Shown piece by piece: positions 49,901-62,905 of a DNA stretch of 64,000 nucleotides; within the stretch, counting starts at the first letter, position 1, and the number at the start of each line of letters is the position of its first letter. The position numbers and the translations under genes are program-made. Under the pieces are notes generated by a model that ran no database searches, had not been told where the DNA came from, and saw nothing but the letters and a program-made list of their open reading frames with translations. The stretch is taken from positions 4,898,001-4,962,000 of the forward strand of contig NC_014666.1 in the NCBI RefSeq assembly GCF_000166135.1, read 5' to 3'. Origin of the DNA: Pseudofrankia inefficax (GTDB lineage Bacteria > Actinomycetota > Actinomycetes > Frankiales > Frankiaceae).

Positions 49901-51355
49901 TCAGAGCTGGCTGTAGACGGACTTGGTCTCCAGGTACATCTCGATGCCGTCTCTGGCGTACTCGCGGCCCCAGCCGGACTGCTTGTAGCCGCCGAAGGGC
50001 ATCTGGTGGTCGTAGACGAGCTGGCAGTTCAGGGTGATGGTGCCCGCCTCGATGCGCCGGGCGACGCGGTGGGCGCGGCGGACGTTCTGGGTGTAGACGG
50101 CGCCGGCGAGGCCGTAGGTGGTGTCGTTGGCCAGGGCGACGGCCTCGTCCTCGTCCTCGAACGGCAGGACGGTGACGACCGGGCCGAAGATCTCCTCGCG
50201 GTAGAGCCGCGCGTCGGTGGAGACGTTGGTCAGCACGGTCGGGTGGACGAAGTAGCCCTTGCGGTCCAGCCGGTTGCCACCGGTGACGACCTGGACGCCT
50301 TCCTGCTTGCCCTCATCCACGTAGCCCATCACCCGGGTGAGCTGCTTCTTGCTGATGAGCGGGCCGAGCTGGGCGCCGTCGTCGGTGGGGCCGCCGAGGC
50401 GCAGCTTGTCCGCGACGGCGGCGATGCCCTCGACGACCTGGTCGAAGACGCCGCGCTGGACGAAGATCCGCGAGCCGCAGACGCAGCCCTGGCCGGAGCC
50501 CGAGAAGATTCCCATCGCGGCCGAGACGGTGGCCGACCTCATCGCCGCGTCGTCGAAGATCAGAACGGGTGACTTGCCGCCGAGCTCCAGGCTGACCTTC
50601 TTCAGGTTGCCCGAGGCCGCCTGCACGATCAGCTTCCCGACCTCGGTGGAGCCGGTGAACGCGACCTTGTCGACGTCGGGGTGCGCGGCCAGGGCGGCGC
50701 CCGCGGTGTGGCCGTAGCCGAACACCAGGTTGACCACGCCCTCGGGGACGCCGGCGTCACGCAGGATCTGGTCGAGCACGAAGGCCGTCAGCGGCGTCTC
50801 CTCCGCCGGCTTGATCACGCAGCTGCACCCGGCCGCCAGCGCGGGCGCGAGCTTGATGCACGCGTTGAACAGCGGCCCGTTCCACGGGAAGATCATCCCG
50901 ACGACGCCGATGGGCTCCTTGAGGGTGTAGCCGTGCAGGTCAGCCTGCCGCCCGGTGATTCCGGCGGTCATCTGGATGTCGAACGAGGTGCCTTCGACCT
51001 TGGTGCACCAGCCGGCGTAGTAGCGGAACAGCTCGGCGGCGCTGGGCAGGATGCCCTCGCCCGACCGGAACGGCATCCCGTTGTTCAGCGAGTCCAGCTG
51101 AACAAGCTCCGAGCCGCGCGCCTCGATCAGGTCCGCGACCTTCCAGAGAATCCGCGCCCGCTCCCGGCCGGGCAGGTTCCGCCACACACCCGACCGGAAC
51201 GACGCCCGCGCGCGAGCCACGGCCTCGTCGACCGCGGCCGCCCCGCCGTCGCGGAACTCGGTGATCTGCTCCTCGGTCGCCGGGTTGATGACCGGAATCA
51301 GCTCACCGGCCCCGGGAACCTCACTGACCTTGTCGAGCACCGATTGCAGGGACAT
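49901..51355 (-). CDS. aldehyde dehydrogenase
   Basis: 484 residues, the usual ALDH length. Catalytic Cys in GSGQGCVCGSR, general base Glu in LELGGKSP, NAD-site FTGSTEVGK, and FPWNGPLFN. Oxidises an aldehyde to acid with NAD(P). AAGGAA lies about 11 bases before the ATG. It heads the catabolic block and is parallel to the thiolase gene. Confidence 0.95.
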   Translation of the reverse strand: MSLQSVLDKVSEVPGAGELIPVINPATEEQITEFRDGGAAAVDEAVARARASFRSGVWRNLPGRERARILWKVADLIEARGSELVQLDSLNNGMPFRSGEGILPSAAELFRYYAGWCTKVEGTSFDIQMTAGITGRQADLHGYTLKEPIGVVGMIFPWNGPLFNACIKLAPALAAGCSCVIKPAEETPLTAFVLDQILRDAGVPEGVVNLVFGYGHTAGAALAAHPDVDKVAFTGSTEVGKLIVQAASGNLKKVSLELGGKSPVLIFDDAAMRSATVSAAMGIFSGSGQGCVCGSRIFVQRGVFDQVVEGIAAVADKLRLGGPTDDGAQLGPLISKKQLTRVMGYVDEGKQEGVQVVTGGNRLDRKGYFVHPTVLTNVSTDARLYREEIFGPVVTVLPFEDEDEAVALANDTTYGLAGAVYTQNVRRAHRVARRIEAGTITLNCQLVYDHQMPFGGYKQSGWGREYARDGIEMYLETKSVYSQL

Positions 51356-51463: not shown

Positions 51464-52624
51464 TCAGGTCGAGAGAATCGCGACGCCGGCGGTGCCGGGG
51501 GCGCCGTAGAGCTGGGCGTAGCCGACGTGGGGGCTGCCGGGGACCTGGCGGTCGCCGGCGGTGCCGCGCAGCTGCTGGGTCAGCTCGTAGACCTGGCGCA
51601 GGCCCGAGGCGCCGATCGGCTCGCCGTTGGCGATGAGGCCGCCGTCGGTGTTGACCGGGAGGCTGCCGCCGATCTCGGTCGCGCCCTCGGCGACGAGCCG
51701 TTCCTGCTCGCCGTCCTCGCACAGCCCGTTCTCGGCCAGGTGAATGACCTCGGCCCCGGCATCGGTGTCCTGCAGCTGCGCGACATCGACGTCGCGCGGG
51801 CCGATCCCGGCCAGCTCGTAGGCGGCGTTCGACGCCGTGACCGTCGGCGCGTCGGCCCGGTCCAGCGGCAGCCACGGGCTGTGCACCTCGAACGCGCCGA
51901 ACTGGCGGGTCCGCACCACCGAGGCGCGCAGGTGAACCGGGCTGTTCGCGGTGTACCTGCGCACGGCGGAGGCCCTGCACAGGATCACTGCCGCGGCTCC
52001 TTCGTCGGGCGAGCAGAACATGTACTGCGTCAGGGGATCGTTGACCATCCGCGAGGTGAGGATCTTCTCCTCGCTCATCGGTGTCCGCCGGAACGCCTTG
52101 GGCGTGATCGATCCGTTGCGGTAGTTCTTCGCCGCGACCTTCGCCAACGTCCGCGGCGAGATTCCGTGGTCGTGCATATACCGTTGGATCTTCATCGCGA
52201 AGAACTTGGGCGTCAGGAACAGTCCGGTTTCCCCGTACCAGGCGGGGAGGCCCATTCCTTCCGAGTAGGAGGCGAACGCCCCGGTGGGATGTTTGTCCAT
52301 CCCGATCGCGATGCCCAGCTCGTATTCACCCAGCCGGATCGTGTTCGCCGCCTGGGTCAGCGCGCTCGCCGCGGTCGCGCACCCGTTGTACACGCCCGTG
52401 ATCGGGATCCCGGTGAGCCCGAGGAAGTTGATGACCGAGTCGGGGTTGTCGACCTCGAAACTGCCCGCGAACCCGAACTGGATCTGCTTCCACTCCAGGC
52501 CGGCGTCCGCGAGCGCGGCCCGCACCGCCTGGGCGCCGAGCTGGATGGCGGTCTGGCCCGGGAACCGGCCGAACGAGGTCCGACCAACACCGATGATCGC
52601 CACATCGTCCATGCCAAGACTCAC
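51464..52624 (-). CDS. thiolase family protein (SCP-x/lipid-transfer type)
   Basis: 386 residues. Thiolase fold with nucleophilic Cys in YNGCATAASAL. The second half has QDTDAGAEVIHLAENGL and NTDGGLIANGEPIGASG in place of the NEAF and HPxGA motifs. The late CxG cysteine is missing (YGAPGTAGVAIL), as in non-classical thiolases that act as retro-aldolases in sterol side-chain breakdown. A DUF35 partner, usual for those, is not in the window. GTG 52624 or ATG 52612 could be the start. A TetR-type operator sits about 150 bases upstream. Confidence 0.88.
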   Translation of the reverse strand: MSLGMDDVAIIGVGRTSFGRFPGQTAIQLGAQAVRAALADAGLEWKQIQFGFAGSFEVDNPDSVINFLGLTGIPITGVYNGCATAASALTQAANTIRLGEYELGIAIGMDKHPTGAFASYSEGMGLPAWYGETGLFLTPKFFAMKIQRYMHDHGISPRTLAKVAAKNYRNGSITPKAFRRTPMSEEKILTSRMVNDPLTQYMFCSPDEGAAAVILCRASAVRRYTANSPVHLRASVVRTRQFGAFEVHSPWLPLDRADAPTVTASNAAYELAGIGPRDVDVAQLQDTDAGAEVIHLAENGLCEDGEQERLVAEGATEIGGSLPVNTDGGLIANGEPIGASGLRQVYELTQQLRGTAGDRQVPGSPHVGYAQLYGAPGTAGVAILST

Positions 52625-52772
52625 TTCCCACTGTCGAGGCCCACCAGCACATCGGGGCGACGCCCGCGGAACGGCCCAGCCAGCACATCGGCCGACCGCG
52701 CGCCCCGGGGACGACTCGCGGAACCACCACGGGGCCTTGTGCCGGACGGCCCCTCGACCAGGTTCACACGCC

Positions 52773-52792
52773 TGCTGAACACATGTTTAGCA
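52773..52792. promoter_or_regulatory. regulon operator, thiolase promoter
   Basis: TGCTGAACACATGTTTAGCA: 8 of 10 base pairs of the palindrome match. It overlaps the stop codon of the esterase gene (52787-52789) and precedes the thiolase gene. It matches the shared motif TGYTRAAC-N4-GTTYARCA. Confidence 0.65.
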
Positions 52793-53803
52793 TTCGGGCT
52801 CGGCAGCGTCAACCGGGGACGAGCGGGACCAGTGTCGGTCGCAGAACGCGCGGATCTCCCGGGTGCGCTCGCGCTCCTCGGGCGCGGTCCCGAAGAACAT
52901 CGCGTGGCCGGCGGCCTCGAAGACGTGCAGGTCGGCGGGTATGCCGGCGGCGCGCAGCGCGCGGTGCATGCGGACGGTGTCGGACAGCAGGAGGTCGCGG
53001 GTGCCGGTGAGCAGGATGGTCGGGGGGAAGCCCTTGGACAGGTCACCGAACAGGGGCGAGAGGTAGGGGTCGCGCAGGTCGTGGCCGCCCGCGTAGAGCG
53101 CGAAGGGGGGCTCGAAGCTGCCGGTGAGCGTGTTGTCGATGCCGAGGTTCGTCCGCCAGGAGTCGCCCGCGCCGGTGAGGTCGACCGCCGGGGTCGCCAG
53201 CACCGCGGCGGCCGGCAGCGGCAGCCCCTCGTCGCGGGCCCGCAGGATCAGCGCGGCCGCCAGGTTCCCGCCAGCCGACGGACCCCCGATGATGACCTGG
53301 CCGGGACGGCGGTCGGCCAGCAGCGTCCGGTAGACGGCCAGGCAGTCGTCCAGCGCCGCCGGGTACGGGTGGCCGGGCGGCATCCGGTAGTCGACCGACC
53401 ACACCGTCGCGCGCACCTGCTTCGCCGTGTCGACGGCCATCGAGCGGCACATCGCCCCGCCGCCCGCGATGAACCCGCTGCCGTGGATCTCCAGATAGAC
53501 GCGCTCGTCGTCGGCGGCGACGCCGTCCGGGGTCACCGCGTAGACACGGACGCCATCAACGTCGAGGTCCTCGACCTGGGCGCCGTCCGCCGGCTTGGTG
53601 AAGTCGAACAGGCCGAGCGCCTGCTTCTCCTGCTCGGCGACGTACGTCCGCCACCCGTCGGGGTCGTCCAGCGCCGGCCACACGGGCGGCGGGCCGACCA
53701 GGCCCAGGGCGAGCACCGCCTGCGCCTCGGGGCTCACGGACGTCGGGACAGGAATGTCGCGGGCCGGAACGTGTAAGGCCGGTCCGGTCGTGCTGGGTGT
53801 CAT
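52787..53803 (-). CDS. alpha/beta-hydrolase-3 (HSL family) esterase
   Basis: 338 residues. Oxyanion loop HGSGFIAGGG (H107, the HGGG equivalent), nucleophile S176 in GPSAGGN, acid Asp in GTRDLL, and His in AGHAMFF. Hydrolyses an acyl or lactone ester. The promoter region carries a copy of the regulon operator 95 bases upstream. GGAG precedes the ATG. Confidence 0.92.
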   Translation of the reverse strand: MTPSTTGPALHVPARDIPVPTSVSPEAQAVLALGLVGPPPVWPALDDPDGWRTYVAEQEKQALGLFDFTKPADGAQVEDLDVDGVRVYAVTPDGVAADDERVYLEIHGSGFIAGGGAMCRSMAVDTAKQVRATVWSVDYRMPPGHPYPAALDDCLAVYRTLLADRRPGQVIIGGPSAGGNLAAALILRARDEGLPLPAAAVLATPAVDLTGAGDSWRTNLGIDNTLTGSFEPPFALYAGGHDLRDPYLSPLFGDLSKGFPPTILLTGTRDLLLSDTVRMHRALRAAGIPADLHVFEAAGHAMFFGTAPEERERTREIRAFCDRHWSRSSPVDAAEPEC

Positions 53804-53897
53804 CGCTCGCTCCGGTGTCGGTCGACGTAGAGGCGGCTATCGGGCCGAGTTCGCGCCGTCCATGGAGGCCGACCCATGTTGAACAGCCGGTCAGGGA

Positions 53898-53917
53898 TGT
53901 TGACCGACTGTTTAGCA
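53898..53917. promoter_or_regulatory. regulon operator, esterase promoter
   Basis: TGTTGACCGACTGTTTAGCA: halves TGTTGACC and TGCTAAAC (complement) around 4 bases. A further half-site TGTTGAAC lies about 20 bases away at 53878. The site falls between the esterase start and the TetR stop. Confidence 0.5.
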
Positions 53918-53952
53918 CAGCGACGAGCGGGCCGGCTACACCGAAAGGAGGC

Positions 53953-54558
53953 TCAGGCGCCGGCGTCGCCGGCGGGCGGGTCGCCGCCAAGTCTGCTCAG
54001 CAGGCGGTCGACGAGAGCGATGGTCTCGGCGTGGCCTTCGGAGAGCCCGAGCAGGTCCTCCGAGACCAGCCCGGCCGAGACGGCACCGACGAGGAACAGG
54101 AGCGCGGCGGGCGGGACATCGTCGAGGTCGAGCCCGAGGTCGGGCAGCCGGTCCGCGAGCAGCTGCGCCTGCTGGCGGCGGAACTTCCGCGAGTAGTCGG
54201 CGATCTCGTGCCGGATGGTCTTGCGGTGGTTCGCCAGGGCCATGAACTCGGTCAGCAGGGCCGTCGCGCCGGCATCGATGCTGAACTCCCACAGGTCGCG
54301 CAGCGGGTGTGGTGACGCGAGCAGCCGGGTCTGTCGTTCCAGGTTCTTCTCGGCCCCGCGCCGGAAGACGGCGAGGAACAGGTCGTCCAGCGTCGGGAAG
54401 TAGTAGTGGATCAGCGCCGGCGTGACGCCCGCGATCCTCGCGACGCTGCGCGAGCTCACGGCCGCGTAGCCGTCCTCGCGCATCAGTCGTTCGGTGACGT
54501 CGAGCAGCAGTGCGCGGGTCTGCGAGCTCTCGGTGCCGGTGCGGCGTGGGCTGGACAT
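53953..54558 (-). CDS. TetR family regulator of the catabolic block
   Basis: 201 residues. Helix-turn-helix about 15-62 (ERLMREDGYAAVSSRSVA and VTPALIHYYFPTLDDLF) with a C-terminal ligand domain. The ATG is at 54558. An operator-like palindrome (54592-54611) in its own upstream region, similar to those before thiolase and esterase, suggests it represses itself and the block. Ligand unknown, probably an acyl-CoA. Confidence 0.88.
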   Translation of the reverse strand: MSSPRRTGTESSQTRALLLDVTERLMREDGYAAVSSRSVARIAGVTPALIHYYFPTLDDLFLAVFRRGAEKNLERQTRLLASPHPLRDLWEFSIDAGATALLTEFMALANHRKTIRHEIADYSRKFRRQQAQLLADRLPDLGLDLDDVPPAALLFLVGAVSAGLVSEDLLGLSEGHAETIALVDRLLSRLGGDPPAGDAGA

Positions 54559-54591
54559 GCCCCCATTCTGGTTGACGCGGCCCGGCCGCCG

Positions 54592-54611
54592 TGCTGAACT
54601 ACCGTTCAACC
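54592..54611. promoter_or_regulatory. regulon operator, TetR/luciferase-like promoter
   Basis: TGCTGAACTACCGTTCAACC contains the exact inner palindrome TGAAC-TACC-GTTCA. It lies between the divergent TetR and luciferase-like oxidoreductase genes. Confidence 0.6.
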
Positions 54612-54720
54612 AACGTGGCTTCAGTCTCACCGCCGGGCAGCGCGGCGGCCGGGCCGGCGCCGCCGGGCGCCCGAGCGGCGCCAAGGCGGGTTCAGTGGCT
54701 CGACCCTTCGGAGGACATGG

Positions 54721-55647
54721 ATGCGGATAGGTCTGGGCGGCGGCGGCTCGACGCCGGACAAACTGGTCGACCAGGCGCGGAAGGCGCAGGCCGACGGCTT
54801 CCACTCGCTGTGGTACGCGAGCGTCGTCCAGGGGGACCCGCTGGTCTCGATGGCGCTGGCCGGCCGGGAGACGACCGCGGTCGAGCTGGGTACCGCCGTG
54901 CTGCAGACCTACCCCTGCCACCCGCTGCTGCAGGCGCAGCGCATCGCCGGGGCCGCGGCGGCGATGGGACGCGCCGGCCTGACGATCGGCCTGGGCCCGT
55001 CGCACCAGGCGAACATCGAGGGCATGTACGGCCTGTCCTACGACCACCCGGGCCGCAACACGGAGGAGTACCTGCGGATCCTCACCGCCCTGCTGCGCGG
55101 CGAGGCCGTCGACTTCACCGGCCAGGAGTGGACCACCCGAGTGCCGGCCGCGACGGTTCGGCTCGCCCACCCGGTCCAGGTACTGCTCGCGGCGCTCTCG
55201 CCGCGGATGTTGCGGGTCGCCGGCGAGTACGCGGACGGCGCGATCCTCTGGATGGCTCCGGCGGCCGCGATCGAGAAGCACGTCGAGCCGCGGCTCGCCG
55301 CGGCCGCGCGGGACGCGGGCCGGCCCGCGCCGCGCATCGTCGCGGGCCTGCCGATCTGTGTGCACGACGACGAGCAGGAGGCCCGCGCGGCCGTCGCGGC
55401 ACAGTCGGTCGTCTACGCCAGCTCGCCCGCCTACCAGCGGATCATGGCCATCGGTGGTGCCGACAGCGCGGCCGAGGCGGCGATCGTCGGCGACGAGGCG
55501 TCCGTCGAGGCGCAGCTGCGCGGGCTTCTCGATGCCGGCGCGACCGACATCCACGCGCACATCGTCCCGGCCGGAAGCGACGCGCGGTCATCCTTGAAGC
55601 GTGGCCGGGACCTTCTCAGCTCTCTGGCCAGGGAATCGGCCAGCTGA
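54721..55647 (+). CDS. LLM-class (F420-type) flavin oxidoreductase
   Basis: 308 residues, TIM-barrel luciferase-like monooxygenase family, in actinomycetes usually using F420. Front MRIGLGGGGSTPDKLVDQA; middle GLTIGLGPSHQ, YDHPGRNTEEYLRIL and PVQVLLAALSPRMLRVAGEYADG typical of F420-dependent members. GGAGGA precedes the ATG. The operator at 54592 should control it. Same direction as the next two genes. Confidence 0.88.
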   Translation: MRIGLGGGGSTPDKLVDQARKAQADGFHSLWYASVVQGDPLVSMALAGRETTAVELGTAVLQTYPCHPLLQAQRIAGAAAAMGRAGLTIGLGPSHQANIEGMYGLSYDHPGRNTEEYLRILTALLRGEAVDFTGQEWTTRVPAATVRLAHPVQVLLAALSPRMLRVAGEYADGAILWMAPAAAIEKHVEPRLAAAARDAGRPAPRIVAGLPICVHDDEQEARAAVAAQSVVYASSPAYQRIMAIGGADSAAEAAIVGDEASVEAQLRGLLDAGATDIHAHIVPAGSDARSSLKRGRDLLSSLARESAS

Positions 55648-55698
55648 CCGCGCGGCCGCAACCGGGTTGGCTTCGGCCACTTCTCAGGGGAGCGTCTG

Positions 55699-56796
55699 AT
55701 GACTGAGCTTTCTCGTCCTGTCCGGGTCATCCAGTGGTGCACCGGCAAGATCGGCCAGATCGCGATCCGGCATCTCGTGGCGAACCCGAGATTCGAGCTG
55801 GTCGGCGTCTACACGACGTCCGCGGCGAAGGAGGGCGTCGACGCGGGATTACTCGCCGGCATCGGCCCGGTCGGCGTCCCGGCGACGACCGACAAGGAGG
55901 CGCTCTTCGCGCTGGAGGCCGACTGCGTGAACTACCTGCCGCTGGCGGTCGACGTCGAGGACCTGGAGCGGCTGCTGCGGTCGGGGAAGAACGTCGTCAC
56001 GGCCGTCGGCCTCACCTTCCCGCCGCCCGAGGACGAGCGGACGCAGCGGCTGGAGGCGGCCTGTCAGGCCGGTGGGACCACGCTGCACGGCGGCGGTGTG
56101 CACCCGGGCTTCGCCGGCGACATCCTGCCGCTGGTCACCTCGCGGCTGATCAGCCGCATCGACCAGGTGGTCGTGACCGAGGTCTGCGACTTCAGCGAGC
56201 ATCCGCAGGCCGAGCTGCTCTTCGGCCTGTTCGGCTTCGGGCTCTCGCCTGAGGAGGCCCACAAGCACGCCACCGCCGTCACGGGCGAGGTCGACGCCCC
56301 GTACGAGGAGTCCATCGCCCTGCTGGCCGCGGCGCTGGGCCTGCGCGTCGAGCGCAACACCCACGAGCTGACCATGGCCGTCGCCGACCGGGACATCACC
56401 ATCGCCGCCGGCGCGATCCCCGCCGGGAAGGTGGCCGGCATCCGCCGCCGCTGGGAGGCGATCGTCGACGGCCGGCCCGCCATCGTCTTCGTCTCGGAGT
56501 GGAAGATGGCCGACGGGCTGACGCCCGCCATCCGGGAGGGCTCGAACCGCTACATCGTCGAGTTCCTCGGCGAGCCGGCCACCCGGATCACCCTGGAGCC
56601 GCTCGAGCCCAGCGCGACCGGCGATCCGGGGTACCCGGGCCGGATCTGGACCGGCATGTCCGTCGTGAACCTGATCCATGACGTCGTCGCCGCGGCGCCC
56701 GGGATCCGTACGCACCTGGACCTCCCGCTGGGACGGCCCCAGGGCCTGTTCCACGAGGGCACCACCTGGCGCGGCCCGCTGCCGGTCGCCCGGTGA
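55699..56796 (+). CDS. dihydrodipicolinate-reductase-like NAD-binding enzyme
   Basis: 365 residues. Rossmann front VIQWCTGKIGQIAIR, catalytic-type segment TTLHGGGVHPGFAGD and C-terminal PLPVAR. Similar proteins in Frankia and mycobacteria are annotated as dihydrodipicolinate reductase or diaminopentanoate dehydrogenase, and their substrate is not established. Stop overlaps the next start by 4 bases, so the pair is co-translated. Confidence 0.82.
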   Translation: MTELSRPVRVIQWCTGKIGQIAIRHLVANPRFELVGVYTTSAAKEGVDAGLLAGIGPVGVPATTDKEALFALEADCVNYLPLAVDVEDLERLLRSGKNVVTAVGLTFPPPEDERTQRLEAACQAGGTTLHGGGVHPGFAGDILPLVTSRLISRIDQVVVTEVCDFSEHPQAELLFGLFGFGLSPEEAHKHATAVTGEVDAPYEESIALLAAALGLRVERNTHELTMAVADRDITIAAGAIPAGKVAGIRRRWEAIVDGRPAIVFVSEWKMADGLTPAIREGSNRYIVEFLGEPATRITLEPLEPSATGDPGYPGRIWTGMSVVNLIHDVVAAAPGIRTHLDLPLGRPQGLFHEGTTWRGPLPVAR

Positions 56797-58004
56797 CCAC
56801 CACCGGGCGCGAGCCAGGCTCGGGCCGGCGCCCCCTGGAGGGGCTGCTCGTCGTCGGCCTGGAGCAGGCGGTGGCGGCCCCGATGGCGACGCGCCACCTG
56901 GCGGACATGGGCGCCCGGGTCATCAAGATCGAGAATCCGCGCGGCGGCGACATGACCCGCCACTACGACGACGCGCAGGCCGGCATGGCCGCGCACTTCG
57001 TCTGGTGCAACCGGGGCAAGGAGTCGGTCGGCCTCAACATCGCCGACCCGCGCGGCGCCGCGGCGCTGGAGCGCCTGCTCGCCCGCGCCGACGTGCTCAT
57101 CCAGAACCTCGCCCCCGGCGCGGCGGCCCGCCGTGGGCTCGACGCGGCCCAGGCGGTCGCCCGCCACCCCCGGCTCGTCGCCGTCGACATCTCCGGCTAC
57201 GGCGAGGGCGGCCCGCTGTCGCACAAGCGGGCCTACGACATGCTGGTCCAGTCCGAGGGCGGCTCCTGCGCGGTCACCGGCGGCCCGGGACAGCCGGCCA
57301 AGCCGGGGATCGCGATGATCGACCTCGCCACCGGCATGTACGCGCTGAGCTGGATCCTCGGCGCGCTGCACGGCCGGGCCGCGACCGGCCGGGGCGAGGC
57401 CCTCACGATCGGCATGTTCGACGTCGTCGCCGAGTGGATGGGCTACCAGGTCAACTACACGATGGGCACCGGGGTCGAGCAGGAGCCGGCCTGGGTCGGC
57501 TCTCCGGCCGTCGCGCCCTATGGCACCTACCGGACGTCCGACGACCAGACGGTCGTGTTGGGAACGACCAACGACGGCGAGTGGCAGCGGCTGGCCCGGA
57601 CCGTGCTCGAACGCGCCGATCTCGCCGACGACCCGGCCCTGGCCACCAACTCCGGACGGGTGGCCGACCGCGCCCGGGTCGACGCGGCCATCAGCACGTG
57701 GACCGGCGGCGTCACGTTGAAGGAGGCCCAGGAGACGCTCGACGCCGCCGCGCTCGGGAACGCCCGGCTCAACGGCGTCCAGGACCTGATCGATCACCCC
57801 CAGCTGGCCGCCCGCGATCGGTGGCGACCCGTGGCGACCCCGCACGGGGAGTTCCGCGCGGTGCTGCCCCCACCGATCGCCGCGACCTGGACGCCGTCGA
57901 TGGGAGAGGTCCCGGGCCTGGGCGAGCACACCGACGCGGTGCTGGCCGAGTTCGGCTACTCCCCCGCCGAGCTCGCGAGCTGGCGCCGCGACGGCGTGAT
58001 CTGA
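56793..58004 (+). CDS. CaiB/BaiF (family III) CoA-transferase
   Basis: 403 residues. Front LEGLLVVGLEQAVAAPMATRHL (key residues EQ...A.P), GADVIKIE-like ARVIKIENP, RGKESV-like NRGKESVGLN, and catalytic Asp in IAMIDLATGMYA. Moves CoA between acids, activating the catabolic substrate. GTG 56793 overlaps the preceding stop (GTGA). Confidence 0.93.
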   Translation: MTTTGREPGSGRRPLEGLLVVGLEQAVAAPMATRHLADMGARVIKIENPRGGDMTRHYDDAQAGMAAHFVWCNRGKESVGLNIADPRGAAALERLLARADVLIQNLAPGAAARRGLDAAQAVARHPRLVAVDISGYGEGGPLSHKRAYDMLVQSEGGSCAVTGGPGQPAKPGIAMIDLATGMYALSWILGALHGRAATGRGEALTIGMFDVVAEWMGYQVNYTMGTGVEQEPAWVGSPAVAPYGTYRTSDDQTVVLGTTNDGEWQRLARTVLERADLADDPALATNSGRVADRARVDAAISTWTGGVTLKEAQETLDAAALGNARLNGVQDLIDHPQLAARDRWRPVATPHGEFRAVLPPPIAATWTPSMGEVPGLGEHTDAVLAEFGYSPAELASWRRDGVI

Positions 58005-58037
58005 CCGGGCCGCGCCTGACCTGAGCCAGCGCCCGGG

Positions 58038-59120
58038 TCAGGCGTCCCGCAGGATGCGCAGCGCGCGGGCGGACATCATGCCGACCCCGGCTCCGCGTTC
58101 GGCCATCCGTTCGTCGGTCGTCTCACCGCGGGCATAGCGGGCGTAGAGCTGCTGACGGATGATCGCGATCCGCCAGCAGGCGAACGACTCGTACCAGGAG
58201 ATCGCCGCGGGGTCGGCGACCCCGCGGCGGGCGTAGTGGTCGACGACCTCGGCGCGGGTCGGCAGGCCCAGCGTCTCCAGCCCGGGGTCGGAGGCGGCGT
58301 GGTCGTCGTCGGTGTCGGCCGGGTCGGGCCAGTAGTTGAGCAGGGTCCCGAGGTCGACGAGAGGGTCGGCGAGCGTGGCCATGTCCCAGTCGAAGACGGA
58401 GGCGACCCGGTCGGGGCGGCCCGCGGCGAACTGGCAGTTGTTGATTTTGAAGTCGTTGTGGACGAGCGTCGCGGTGGCGCTCGCGGGCAGGCGCGCGGCG
58501 AGCAGGTCCGCGGCCGCGACCATCGCGTCGTCGTGGGCGGGCTCGGCCCAGGGGGCGACGCGCTGCCAGCGGTCGCGCCAGCCGGACAGCTGGCGTTCGA
58601 GGAACCCGTCGGGGCGCCCGAGCCGGTCGAGGTCGCAGTCGGCCGGGTCGACGGCGTGCAGGTCCGCGAGGGCGTCGACGGTGGCGAAACCGAGCTCACG
58701 GCCGTCGGCGGGGCCGCCGAGCTCGGCGGGGATCGTTCCCCAGACGACGATGCCCGGCCGGTACTCGCTCACCAGGAAGTGGCTGCCGGCGACGTCGGTG
58801 TCCTCGCAGAACAGGAACGCGCGCGGCGCCCGGTCGTACACCCGCCACAGCCGGGACAGCACCCGGTGCTCGCGGCGCATGTCGTGCGCACCGGGCGCCA
58901 GCACCCCGAACGGCGGCCGGCGCAGCACGAACCGGCGGTCCCCGAACCGGACGAGGTAGGTCAGGTTCGCCGAGCCGTTCGGGAACTGCAGGACCTCCAT
59001 CGGCCCCTCGACGTCGAGCCGCGGCGTGAGGTACTCCCTGACCTGGTCCCAGGGCAGCTCCTGGCCGGGCCGGACGGGCGCCACCTCGGGCGGGACGCCG
59101 GCCACGGACGGTTCGGTCAT
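58038..59120 (-). CDS. aminoglycoside-phosphotransferase-like kinase (ACAD10/11 N-terminal type)
   Basis: 360 residues. Kinase fold with catalytic loop HNDFKINN (H-x-D-x4-N), metal DWD in VFDWDMATLADP, and EYRPGIVVWG. This class is always found with acyl-CoA dehydrogenases, where it is thought to phosphorylate hydroxyacyl-CoA. The acyl-CoA dehydrogenase gene directly upstream (39 bases) supports this. Confidence 0.9.
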   Translation of the reverse strand: MTEPSVAGVPPEVAPVRPGQELPWDQVREYLTPRLDVEGPMEVLQFPNGSANLTYLVRFGDRRFVLRRPPFGVLAPGAHDMRREHRVLSRLWRVYDRAPRAFLFCEDTDVAGSHFLVSEYRPGIVVWGTIPAELGGPADGRELGFATVDALADLHAVDPADCDLDRLGRPDGFLERQLSGWRDRWQRVAPWAEPAHDDAMVAAADLLAARLPASATATLVHNDFKINNCQFAAGRPDRVASVFDWDMATLADPLVDLGTLLNYWPDPADTDDDHAASDPGLETLGLPTRAEVVDHYARRGVADPAAISWYESFACWRIAIIRQQLYARYARGETTDERMAERGAGVGMMSARALRILRDA

Positions 59121-59159
59121 CGCCGGGCCGCCGGCGTCGAGTCAGGGCCGGCCACCGCG

Positions 59160-60458
59160 CTAGCCGGCATGAACGGCCCGCTCGATCCGCGCGGCGAAGC
59201 GCTCCCGGGCGGCGGCACGCCGCGCCGGCAGGTGCCCGGACGGGAACAGGCCGTCGGCCGGCGCGTAGCCGGCGAGCAGGGTGCGGGCGAGGTTCGTCTT
59301 GTGGACCTCGGTGGCGCCGTCGGCCAGGCCCATCTGGAAGCTTTCCAGCACCCACGCGCCGAACGGCATCTCGTTGGAGATTCCGAGCGAGCCGTGGATC
59401 TGCACGGCCCGGGCGGCCACGTCGTGCAGCACCTTGGGCATCGTGGCCTTGACCGCGGCGATGTCGGCGCGGACCCGGCTGTAGTCGTTGTACTGGTCGA
59501 TCCGCCACGCGGTCCGCAGCACCAGCAGGCGGAACTGCTCGATCTCGATCCAGGAGTCGGCGATCATCGCCTGGACCAGCTGCTTGCGGGCCAGCTGCTC
59601 GCCCTTCGTGACCCGGGACAGCGCGCGCTCGCACATCATGTCGAACGCCTCGCGGACCAGCCCGACGGTGCGCATCGCGTGGTGGATCCGGCCGCCACCC
59701 AGGCGGGTCTGCGCGACGGCGAAACCCTGGCCACGTTCGCCGAGCAGGTGGTCGGCGGGGATGCGGACGTCGTCGTAACGCAGGTAGGCATGCGCGCCGT
59801 CCGCGTCGGCCTGGCCGGCGACGGCGACATTGCGCACGTTCGTGATGCCCGGGGTGTCCGCCGGGACGACGAACATCGACTGACGGCGGTGCGGAGCGGC
59901 GTCGGGATCGGTGACCGCGAGCACGATGAGGAACGACGCGAACCGCGCGTGGCTGGAGAACCACTTCTCCCCGTTGATCACCCACTCGTCGCCGTCGAGC
60001 GCGGCGCGGGTGGTGAACCCGGTCGGGTCGCTGCCGCCCTGCGGCTCGGTCATCGAGAACGCCGACACGATCCGGCCGTCGACCAGAGGCTCCAGATAGC
60101 GCTTCTTCAGGTCGTCGGTGCCGAACCGAGCGAGCACCTCCGCGTTCCCGGAGTCGGGCGACTGGCAGCCGAACACCACCGGCGCGGCGGGCGAACGGCC
60201 GAGGATCTCGTGCATCAACGCGAGCTTGAGCTGCCCGTACCCCGGGCCGCCCAGTTCCGGGCCGAGATGACAGGCCCACAGGCCGCGCTCCCGGACCTTC
60301 TGCTGCAGCGGCGGGATCAGCTCCGCGCGCAGCGGGTCGCGCAGGTCGCGCGCGTTGCCGATGAGCAGGTCGACCGGCTGGACCTCGTCGCGCACGAAGG
60401 CGTCGACCCAGTCCAGCTCGGCCTGAAACTCTGGATCGGTCTCGAAACCCCAGGCCAT
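59160..60458 (-). CDS. acyl-CoA dehydrogenase
   Basis: 432 residues. ACAD fold: FSMTEPQGGSDPTGFTTRA for FAD and substrate, GEKWFSSHARFA, and late QIHGSLGISNEMPFGAWVLE with TEVHKTNLAR. Related to the ACAD10/11 group. ATG 60458 has GGGAG upstream. With the neighbouring kinase-like gene it probably converts 4-hydroxyacyl- or branched acyl-CoA. Confidence 0.93.
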   Translation of the reverse strand: MAWGFETDPEFQAELDWVDAFVRDEVQPVDLLIGNARDLRDPLRAELIPPLQQKVRERGLWACHLGPELGGPGYGQLKLALMHEILGRSPAAPVVFGCQSPDSGNAEVLARFGTDDLKKRYLEPLVDGRIVSAFSMTEPQGGSDPTGFTTRAALDGDEWVINGEKWFSSHARFASFLIVLAVTDPDAAPHRRQSMFVVPADTPGITNVRNVAVAGQADADGAHAYLRYDDVRIPADHLLGERGQGFAVAQTRLGGGRIHHAMRTVGLVREAFDMMCERALSRVTKGEQLARKQLVQAMIADSWIEIEQFRLLVLRTAWRIDQYNDYSRVRADIAAVKATMPKVLHDVAARAVQIHGSLGISNEMPFGAWVLESFQMGLADGATEVHKTNLARTLLAGYAPADGLFPSGHLPARRAAARERFAARIERAVHAG

Positions 60459-60528
60459 GCCCGCTCCCTCACCCTCACCAGTACCAGCGCGCCCGTGCCG
60501 CTGCGACGCGCTCTCGACCGTCGCGGCC

Positions 60529-61113
60529 TCAGCCGCCCGCCAGCAGCTCCGGGATGCGGGGGTCGGGCTCAAGGTCCAGCGAGGTCATGAACGAGGCCAT
60601 CGTCGCGTAACAGCCAACCGTGACAATGACATCGAGGAGCTGCCGCACGTCAAGCCCGGCGGCGAGCGACTCCCAGGTGGAGTCCGACACGGCGCCGTCG
60701 TCGACGAGGTCGTCGACCGCGCACAGCAGCGCGCGTTCCAGCGGCACGAGGAAGGGCGCCTTCGGCCCGAACGCGACGCGCGCGATCTCCTCGTCGGTGA
60801 GCCCCGCCTCCCGGCCCGCGAACAGGTGCTGCGCCCACAGGTACGGCGACGCGCGGCGCGCCGCGACCCGCAGGGCGAGGATCTCCACCTGACGGGTGCT
60901 GAGTGTGCTGTCCAGCAGGACGTAGCCGTTGAGAACCATGATGGCGCGGGCCAGGTCCGGGTGGTGCGCCAGCGAGGCGAGCACGTCGCGCCCGCTCGGC
61001 CGTCGGGTCAGGTCCGGCGCCGGCAGCCCCCGGGTGACCGGGTCGATCGCGGCCAGCGCCTGGCGCATCTCGGCGGGCCATTCCCGCGGCGGCAGGGGTG
61101 GAATTCGAGCCAT
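60529..61113 (-). CDS. carboxymuconolactone-decarboxylase/AhpD-like protein
   Basis: 194 residues, CMD-family helical fold: RQVEILALRVAARRASPYLWAQHLFAGREAGLTDEEI carries the conserved E...W..H. The CxxC of peroxidase AhpD is absent, so it is not a thiol peroxidase; reaction unknown. AAGGGAA stands before the ATG. It lies between the SDR and dehydrogenase genes in one direction. Confidence 0.82.
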   Translation of the reverse strand: MARIPPLPPREWPAEMRQALAAIDPVTRGLPAPDLTRRPSGRDVLASLAHHPDLARAIMVLNGYVLLDSTLSTRQVEILALRVAARRASPYLWAQHLFAGREAGLTDEEIARVAFGPKAPFLVPLERALLCAVDDLVDDGAVSDSTWESLAAGLDVRQLLDVIVTVGCYATMASFMTSLDLEPDPRIPELLAGG

Positions 61114-61154
61114 GGGCCGTTCCCTTCGCGCAGCTGGTTGCCGCTCGCCGCGGC

Positions 61155-61991
61155 CTACTTGAGCAGGGCGCCGGCGTCGACGGGGAGGGTCACGCCGGTC
61201 AGGAAGCGGCCTTCCTCGGAGGCGAGGAACAGGGCGGCGTTGGCGATGTCCTCCGGCTCCACCCAGGGGGTGGGCAGCAGGTGCATGTTCTGGGAGACGA
61301 CCGCGAAGTCGTCGATCGTCGGGTTCTCCAGGTCGGGGCGGAACATCTTGAACGTGCCCTCGTGGATCGTCATCGGGGTGTTGACCTGGGTCGGGTGCAG
61401 CGAGTTGACCCGGATGTTGCGGGAGCCGAGCTCCAGGGCGAGGGTGCGCATGATGCCGACGACGCCGTGCTTCGCGGCGATGTAGTGGCCGATGTGGGGG
61501 TGGGCCATCAGCCCGCCGGCCGAGCTGGTCAGGATGATCGACCCGCCGCGCTTGCCGGCGAGGATGTGCGGGATCGAGACCTTGGTGGTCAGCCACACGC
61601 CGGTGAGGTTGATGTCGATCGTGTCGTGCCAGGTCTTCTCGTCCATCTTGTGCAGCAGGGCCCCGGTCGCGCCGATGCCGGCGTTCGCGATGACGATGTC
61701 GAGGCGGCCGAACTCGGCGACGCCCTCGTCGACGACGGCCTTCATCGTGTCGTGGTCGCGGACGTCGGCCTGCGCGGCGTGGATCCGGCGGCCGGTCTTC
61801 TCCACGAGGCGGACCGTCTCCGCGAGGTCCGCGGGGGTCGACATCTGGAAGTCGACGCCGTCGAGCGGCTTGCAGATGTCGATCGCGATGATGTCGGCGC
61901 CCTCCTGCGCGAGACGCACCGCGTGCGCACGGCCCTGGCCTCGCGCCGCCCCCGTGATGAACGCGACCTTGCCCTCAACCCGTCCAGACAT
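61155..61991 (-). CDS. mycofactocin-type short-chain dehydrogenase
   Basis: 278 residues. TGAARGQGRAHAVRLAQEGA at the front, then the insertion IDICKPLDGVDFQMSTPADL and VEKTGRRI that marks the mycofactocin-dependent SDR subfamily; catalytic S in TSSAGG, Y-x3-K in HYIAAKHG. NAD stays bound and mycofactocin re-oxidises it. No mft biosynthesis gene lies within the window. GGAAGAG precedes ATG 61991. A weaker operator-like site stands 28 bases upstream. Confidence 0.93.
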   Translation of the reverse strand: MSGRVEGKVAFITGAARGQGRAHAVRLAQEGADIIAIDICKPLDGVDFQMSTPADLAETVRLVEKTGRRIHAAQADVRDHDTMKAVVDEGVAEFGRLDIVIANAGIGATGALLHKMDEKTWHDTIDINLTGVWLTTKVSIPHILAGKRGGSIILTSSAGGLMAHPHIGHYIAAKHGVVGIMRTLALELGSRNIRVNSLHPTQVNTPMTIHEGTFKMFRPDLENPTIDDFAVVSQNMHLLPTPWVEPEDIANAALFLASEEGRFLTGVTLPVDAGALLK

Positions 61992-62018
61992 TGCTACCCC
62001 ACTCTTCCGGCAGACACG

Positions 62019-62038
62019 TGCTGAACGACCGTACAGTG
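62019..62038. promoter_or_regulatory. half-matching regulon operator, SDR promoter
   Basis: TGCTGAACGACCGTACAGTG: the left half matches the shared motif exactly, the right half is degenerate. It is 28 bases before the mycofactocin-type SDR gene. Confidence 0.35.
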
Positions 62039-62121
62039 GGCGGGGTCGATCAGCAAGATCTGCACGTGCCCGGGCCTGGTTTTGCCCGCGCCAACGTCGC
62101 TTGACCATTGGGATACGCCGA

Positions 62122-62141
62122 TGTTAAACACGTGCTCAACA
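62122..62141. promoter_or_regulatory. regulon operator, divergent SDR/SnoaL region
   Basis: TGTTAAACACGTGCTCAACA: 8 of 10 palindrome pairs match, with a CACGTG core. It lies in the 235 bases between the divergent SDR and SnoaL-like genes. Confidence 0.6.
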
Positions 62142-62226: not shown

Positions 62227-62784
62227 ATGAGCACCGACACCGAGATCGAGGAGCTGCGGCGCGAGGTCCGCTTCCTGCGGGACCGGCAGGACATCCTCGA
62301 CACTGTGAACAAGCAGTCGCGTGGCCATGACCGTCACGACGTCGAGCTGATGACGAGCGTGCTGCACGAGGACGGGATCGACGAGCACGGCTCGGTCTCG
62401 AACGTGGGCGCCGCCTACGGTCCGTGGTCGAACAAGCAGCACTCGATGGTGTTCGCCGACCACCTGCACAACATCACGACGCATACCTGTGAGATCGACG
62501 GCGACGTCGCGCACGCCGAGAGCTATGTCATCGGCACCATGGTCGGCCGCGACGAGAAGACGCTGGCCTTCATGGGCGGCCGCTACCTCGACCGGCTGGA
62601 ACGCCGCGACGGCGTCTGGAAGATCGCGCTGCGGCGCTGCACGATCGAGTGGGCCTTCACCGCCGACGCCTCCTTCCTGCACTCCGGCGCGTTCCAGGGC
62701 TTCCTCAAGGGCACCTGGGACACCGAAGACCTGTCCTACGCCCGCCCGCTGCTACCGGACACCGGGCCCGCCGTCCGCTGGTAA
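62227..62784 (+). CDS. SnoaL-like (NTF2 fold) domain protein
   Basis: 185 residues. SnoaL_4-type fold: RDRQDILDTVNKQSRGHDRHD (key RQDI and D-R-HD) at the front, HITTHTCEIDGD-like NITTHTCEIDGDVAHAESY, and RYLDRLERRDGVWKIALR. Such proteins accompany catabolic SDRs and dioxygenases and may be dehydratases or isomerases. AGGGAG precedes ATG 62227. Divergent from the mycofactocin-type SDR. Confidence 0.85.
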   Translation: MSTDTEIEELRREVRFLRDRQDILDTVNKQSRGHDRHDVELMTSVLHEDGIDEHGSVSNVGAAYGPWSNKQHSMVFADHLHNITTHTCEIDGDVAHAESYVIGTMVGRDEKTLAFMGGRYLDRLERRDGVWKIALRRCTIEWAFTADASFLHSGAFQGFLKGTWDTEDLSYARPLLPDTGPAVRW

Positions 62785-62825: not shown

Positions 62826-62905
62826 GATGATCGCTGATTTGGCCCTCAGGTGGTTGTGAATCGCGCCGATTTCACATCCACCTGAGGGCCACACTCGCGA
62901 TCAAA
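62826..62905. repeat. long imperfect palindrome between convergent genes
   Basis: Inner arms TGGCCCTCAGGTGG (62840-62853) and its exact complement (62878-62891), continued by TGTGAA/TTCACA (62855-62860/62871-62876) and outer arms TGATCGC/GCGATCA (62828-62834/62897-62903). It could be a bidirectional terminator or a REP/MITE-like element. The outer arm covers the stop codon of the next gene. Confidence 0.7.

Follow-up and report, generated by a model that had tools for sequence, protein, structure and literature searches.

In mycobacteria and rhodococci, the TetR-family regulators KstR and KstR2 control numerous catabolic promoters through palindromic operators (PMC3388012, PMC8700777, PMC6593523), a combination that recurs in the system described here. 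The Rv0767c-type regulator G155_05115 of Mycobacterium sp. VKM Ac-1817D is a TetR protein with a putative autoregulatory palindrome, motif X, which is associated with 14 putative operons including those for short-chain dehydrogenases/reductases (SDRs), P450s and dehydrogenases (PMC6593523), and the sites of Rv0767c are reported to be enriched for GAC and GTC (PMC10312376). MftR, the TetR regulator of mycofactocin biosynthesis, has an acyl-CoA ligand and the operator TCCATTCTGGCACTCGATGCCATATAT (PMC8728441), and EdcR, a TetR repressor of an estrogen-catabolism cluster, has the palindromic operator TnnCnnTACnAnTnGTAnnGnnA and is likely to be autoregulated (PMC8700777). Here, we analyze a 64,000-nucleotide window (the whole stretch of DNA under consideration, positions 4,898,001-4,962,000 of the single-contig, 8,815,781-base genome of Pseudofrankia inefficax, coded G000), in which a 20-base palindrome with a 4-base (N4) center marks a series of catabolic genes. 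With considerable confidence, we predict that a TetR subfamily with the VTPALIHYYFP recognition helix uses this palindrome as its operator; TetR1, encoded in the window, is a member, and the control is likely shared with its paralog TetR2. Five-digit coordinates refer to the window and seven-digit ones to the genome.

The scan pattern was TGYTRAACN4GTTYARCA, scored by the number of mismatches, with at most two mismatches defining a strong site, and with 100 dinucleotide shuffles, the reversed pattern and altered spacers as controls. The window contains six matches with at most three mismatches, compared with a mean of 0.29 and a maximum of 2 in the shuffles, none of which (0/100) reached six. 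Five of these sites, at 52773, 53898, 54592, 62122 and, more weakly, 62019, had been listed in a preliminary description of this DNA, which also proposed such a comparison with random sequences; all five are found, with 0, 1, 1, 1 and 3 mismatches, respectively, and the comparison comes out in their favor. The AAC...GTT core given in that description is intact in both arms at 52773 and 54592 but not at 53898 and 62122. The perfect site, TGCTGAACACATGTTTAGCA (52773..52792), lies upstream of the thiolase gene, which starts about 150-160 bp away, and covers the final 6 bases of the esterase gene. The site at 53898..53917 lies downstream of the TetR1 stop codon and precedes the esterase gene by 94 bp; that at 54592..54611 precedes TetR1 by 33 bp and the luciferase-like gene by 109 bp; that at 62122..62141 precedes the SnoaL-like gene by 85 bp and the SDR gene by 130 bp, and the weak site at 62019..62038 precedes the latter by 27 bp. 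The sixth match, absent from the preliminary list (53877..53896, 3 mismatches), starts 21 bp before the 53898 site, so that the two form a possible tandem operator; an exact 21-bp spacing would suit two dimers on the same face of the DNA. None of the six sites is assigned to a strand. The same 21-bp pairing (53877-53917) is also seen before a distant TetR homolog (L146, 5889-5929).

Across the whole genome, 53 positions match with at most three mismatches, compared with 20 for the reversed pattern, so that many lone three-mismatch positions are background. The genome listing was sorted by mismatches and is complete for the 19 strong sites (two without mismatches, nine with one and eight with two), 13 of which fall between 4,950,773 and 5,022,798, that is, within 72 kb or 0.8% of the genome; the probability of this clustering was computed post hoc, with the cluster already seen. 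Four of these 13 sites are inside the window and nine are past its end. The island thus delimited is 82% coding, yet none of its sites is centered in a called gene (beyond the window, gene calls come from a simple in-house caller and the start positions may be off). In the 92 kb around the island, the 4-base spacer gives 13 sites with at most two mismatches, whereas each of the spacers 0-3 and 5-8 gives none; this control is fair for the island alone, since the other 15 stretches had been picked for holding sites. The KstR operator has a 2-base center. The preliminary description regarded the 4-base center as distinctive, and this view stands, with 13 sites for spacer 4 and 0 for spacer 2. A loose symmetric pattern was set aside as too weak (1071 matches compared with 608 reversed). 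The sites are confirmed as real, non-random and N4-specific.

The sites were traced through 35 Frankiaceae genomes using a relaxed pattern, TGYTRARCN4GYTYARCA, with at most one mismatch, and each genome was assigned by the recognition helix of its best TetR hit among the fetched hits, class I being defined by TPALIHYYFP. The nine class-I genomes contain 37 sites, compared with 5 reversed matches, whereas the 26 genomes lacking a class-I TetR contain 10, compared with 12 reversed. Without G000, the eight remaining class-I genomes hold 24 sites and, without its near relative G033 as well, the seven others hold 18, with 5 reversed matches in either case; class-I and other genomes differ with a Mann-Whitney p = 1.2e-5 when G000 is left out. 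In these seven genomes, 13 of the 18 sites have a class-I TetR or a marked-gene homolog as neighbor, in a different gene order; of the other five, as many as there are reversed-control matches, two fall within reading frames, one fronts a dehydrogenase-like gene of no assigned type and two lie elsewhere. In G032, one perfect site precedes a relative (93%) of the mycofactocin-coupled SDR, and another is located between a TetR and a SnoaL-like relative (62%), common to both; in G019 and G021, paired sites directly precede a relative (88-89%) of the acyl-CoA dehydrogenase, and in G018, a site precedes a relative (82%) of the luciferase-like gene. Alignment with G033 is possible for 13 of the 18 island sites, in which 254 of the 260 letters are the same, compared with 3078 of the 3538 flanking letters, a total that takes in three stretches whose own site did not align. 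Site 52773 is identical at 20/20 positions amid flanks of 85% identity; 53898, 62019 and 62122 are likewise identical at 20/20 positions, and 53877 and 54592 are identical at 19/20 each.

The possibility that the motif reflects chance or composition, or forms part of a widespread promoter element and is no operator, appears negligible: background matches do occur (5 reversed in the nine class-I genomes, 12 in the rest and 20 in G000 at three mismatches), but neither the shuffles nor the reversed pattern nor other spacers reproduce the site set, and the sites accompany the marked genes in other genomes. Chance is thus contradicted as a general account, although lone weak sites could still be due to it.

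TetR1 (53953..54558, minus strand; 201 amino acids) contains the recognition helix region VTPALIHYYFPTLDDLF and an N-terminal TetR_N helix-turn-helix domain (Pfam TetR_N, 1.7e-11; PF00440, 44.2 bits, cut-off 24), and its structural model is an all-helical TetR fold with a mean predicted local distance difference test score (pLDDT) of 86. The 50 structure matches listed for it have Z scores of 13.9-16.1 over 162-187 residues and are mostly TetR-family entries; searches of solved structures yielded generic TetR matches only, with no hint of a ligand. Identity with KstR was rejected: TetR1 scores 19.8 bits with the NCBIfam KstR model NF033703, compared with a cut-off of 280, and spacer 2 gives no sites. 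The protein has its own site 33 bp upstream, at position -53, and protein searches yielded relatives from Frankia sp. AgB1.9, Pseudofrankia and Parafrankia. The -53 site is also found before the homologs in Frankia AgB1.9, Pseudofrankia BMG5.36 and Parafrankia soli, is degraded in P. colletiae and is absent at -53 before the EUN1f homolog; several TetR relatives, as far afield as Mycobacterium, have either this site or a variant that matches their helix in front of their own gene. Because class-I genomes hold sites, homologs of the marked genes keep sites and several TetR relatives carry the site or a variant upstream, TetR1 is very probably one reader of the sites. Sequence comparison shows the site set, its spacing, clustering and conservation, and the association with the TetR class.

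The paralog TetR2 (4981852-4982454), 30 kb away within the island, is 66% identical to TetR1, has an identical recognition helix and has sites 34 bp (2 mismatches) and 264 bp upstream. That TetR1 alone is the master of every site and TetR2 has another job seems unlikely: TetR1, at the island edge, adjoins three of the four strong window sites, and G032 has a TetR1-like protein (76%) together with three sites, but TetR2 has the same helix and a two-mismatch site of its own, and G028 has two sites although the only class-I protein among its fetched hits is TetR2-like. The converse, namely, that TetR2 is the island master and TetR1 controls only its own neighborhood, is more doubtful. TetR2 does sit within the island, behind its two upstream sites, and TetR2-like proteins accompany sites in G019 and G028; however, G032 has marked target genes around a TetR1-like protein that carries the -53 site, and in the tree, the G020 protein, which has a -53 site as well, clusters with TetR1, albeit with weak support. 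Control by the VTPALIHYYFP subfamily, likely shared between the two paralogs, is the reading we prefer.

Several observations weigh against this interpretation. The class-I genomes also tend to be the larger ones. The class-I TetRs L073 (G021) and L076 (G019) have no site within 320 bp upstream, and L072 (G017) has a degraded one. A promoter scan of 52500-54800 found no sigma-70-like promoter, so that overlap of the sites with promoters is unsupported (a terminator scan of the same segment found none either). The DNA alone does not separate TetR2 from TetR1 as the reader and assigns no site to one or the other because of their 66% identity, the common helix and the site before TetR2 itself. 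Further TetR genes adjoin sites (4998253, 5022038 and 4973999), and in Frankia genomes, a similar palindrome directly precedes a different TetR, 65% like the product of 5343811 in G000; these look-alike sites (L210 4937, L211 869, L212 1685 and L219 4261) are adjoined by a small gene that appears SnoaL-like by eye. It is conceivable, although very improbable, that this or another TetR lineage (the Frankia relatives of 5343811 have the helix VSPALVIHHF) reads the sites and that TetR1 is a bystander. Sites like TGCTGAACN4GTTCAGCT stand directly upstream of those relatives (L210-L212, L219), but their genomes hold just 1-2 such sites, the 5343811 copy in G000 has only a three-mismatch site, and site abundance tracks the TPALIHYYFP class rather than the 5343811 lineage. 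The preliminary proposal that the TetR at 53953 controls all of the sites is therefore upheld in part: a reader role is backed by its own site and by those upstream of its homologs, whereas control of every site is not established, given TetR2, the other site-adjacent TetRs and the unrelated Frankia lineage.

As to how TetR1 and TetR2 bind, repress and divide their work, which ligand acts and how the operons are built, we infer the following scheme. TetR1, very probably as a dimer, would repress its own promoter and the catabolic promoters in its vicinity, namely, those of the luciferase-like/CoA-transferase operon, the esterase, the thiolase, the SDR-acyl-CoA dehydrogenase operon and the SnoaL-like gene. 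Its release would be triggered by an intermediate of the pathway, with a CoA thioester or an ester-derived acid as the most likely candidates. The same operator marks a small number of distant loci and a wider island of aromatic compound and ester breakdown that extends to roughly 5.023 Mb. TetR2 probably reads the same sites, hence the likely sharing of control.

The window genes marked by sites are those for the esterase, the thiolase, TetR1, the luciferase-like protein, the SDR and the SnoaL-like protein. On the minus strand, the hormone-sensitive-lipase-like esterase (52787..53803; Pfam Abhydrolase_3, 2.1e-46) is followed by the thiolase/lipid-transfer-like protein (51464..52624; Pfam Thiolase_C_1) and, probably behind the latter, an aldehyde-dehydrogenase-like gene (49901..51355; a label read from the translation only). 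On the plus strand, the luciferase-like F420-dependent oxidoreductase (54721..55647; TIGR03564, 307.8 bits, cut-off 234.25) probably shares an operon with a DAP_DH_C-type dehydrogenase (55699..56796), which overlaps a family III CoA-transferase (56793..58004); an APH-type phosphotransferase (58038..59120) and an acyl-CoA dehydrogenase (59160..60458), both on the minus strand, come next, these last four being identified by profile search. The SDR (61155..61991, minus strand) had been called mycofactocin-type from the sequence, a label borne out by TIGR03971 (401 bits, cut-off 300), and the SnoaL-like protein (62227..62784, plus strand) matches Pfam SnoaL_4. Between the convergent SnoaL-like gene and the following SDR gene, at 62828-62903, there is a 33-base inverted repeat with arms that are 85% complementary and a 10-base gap, possibly a two-way terminator.

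The extension of the regulon beyond the window is well supported. Past its end, sites mark a luciferase-like gene (4961933), TetR2 (4981852), an SDR gene (4982780), an alpha/beta hydrolase gene (5008459) and a second esterase gene (5022909), and a perfect site fronts genes of the FAA-hydrolase, acetaldehyde dehydrogenase and DmpG-type aldolase families (4999523-5002430); the distant marked loci encode an SDR, a molybdopterin dehydrogenase and an S15-type hydrolase. For the perfect site at 4999202 (L048, 5202), no alignment was found within 54 kb from G033, and this locus may have been inserted more recently under the shared operator. Three sites, at 4960019 (62019 in the window), 4982719 and 3336254, have in common a longer string, CTGTACGGTCGTTCAGCA, and these weaker sites, which precede two SDR genes and one molybdopterin dehydrogenase gene, may represent an operator sub-class. 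The island also encodes a tannase/feruloyl esterase, a Rieske oxygenase and a LigB dioxygenase, and its gene content fits the breakdown of esters and aromatic acids, the presumed substrates. That a shared operator marks a catabolic regulon, as the preliminary description put it, is well supported by the site set, its clustering and the marked genes of the relatives.

Across the TetR subfamily, the operator appears to vary with the recognition helix. Among 51 dereplicated TetR homologs (reduced from 108 hits after dropping one with too late a start), 23, of which 13 are mycobacterial, have an N4 palindrome with a score of at least 2.0 upstream, compared with 0.45 expected from shuffles that preserve letters only. 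The trend is that T-P-A-L helices go with AAC arms, K-P-(A/Q)-L helices with GC arms and N-N-G-L helices with TTC/GTC arms; against this rule, L072 (T-P-A-L) has mixed arms. Perhaps N-P-A-L also goes with the AAC half-site: of the five such rows, L133 is clear, L138 is weak, one arm fits in L177, and neither L166 nor L168 shows a fit. The Fisher test of helix against half-site used a hand tally of 6 and 20 rows that left out L072, L073, L076, L138, L166, L168, L177, L078, L092, L118, L082 and L176, in which the site is unclear or inconsistent; its p-value is given no weight because, as the tree indicates, the rows share ancestry, which likewise limits helix-operator covariation as proof. The mycobacterial homologs that are divergent from a P450-like gene, a label assigned by eye (for example, L106, L116 and L162), are ~50% identical and have the N4 palindrome TGCTGAGCACYTGCTTAGCA upstream. 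Exact TGCTGAGCACYTGCTTAGCA occurs in all 12 chosen mycobacterial genomes, in 1-3 copies each, which implies a unit of limited size, not a large regulon; with at most one mismatch, there are 32 matches in these genomes compared with 10 reversed. The molybdopterin dehydrogenase gene with AAC-arm sites in G000 has a relative (65%) in G034 that is separated from a K-type TetR gene by a site of the GC type. Another TetR class, with the helix NNGLVYYYFG (L093, L094, L095 and L083), has its own conserved palindrome 112-132 bp upstream, of the form TGTTCKTCANNYGACTAACA with small variations. A tentative but plausible reading is that a few helix residues set the operator around a fixed N4 center, that the operators of target genes changed alongside, and that a switch of 1-3 exact sites, like that of mycobacteria, was expanded in Pseudofrankia to a regulon of ~19 sites with two paralogs as readers.

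What began as a hunch from sequence alone has become the prediction of a regulon, its candidate regulator and operator named, for the catabolic island of a relative of Frankia. The homologs form a compact natural data set in which operator letters are linked to the recognition helices of TetRs, and this could aid regulon prediction for many uncharacterized actinobacterial TetR proteins. Literature searches (on Frankia and Pseudofrankia TetRs, helix-operator covariation, mycobacterial TetR/P450 operators and the mycobacterial motif letters) found nothing on this system among the open-licence PubMed Central matches listed, which is not a claim of absence from print.

Among the described systems, MftR resembles the present one in combining a TetR with a link to mycofactocin, and EdcR in combining a TetR with a catabolic cluster and a palindromic operator; both were dropped as readers because their operators, as printed, differ from the sites described here (for MftR, in a comparison by eye). 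The GAC/GTC sites of Rv0767c are unlike the AAC/GTT arms, and the motif X system resembles the present one in combining a TetR, a putative autoregulatory palindrome and a set of putative operons. The mycobacterial TetR/P450-like pair has the N4 palindrome in common with the TetR1 system but differs in the GC rather than AAC half-site, the K-P-Q-L helix and the low copy number. The kind of system is familiar, and the link between helix and operator is the part worth following.

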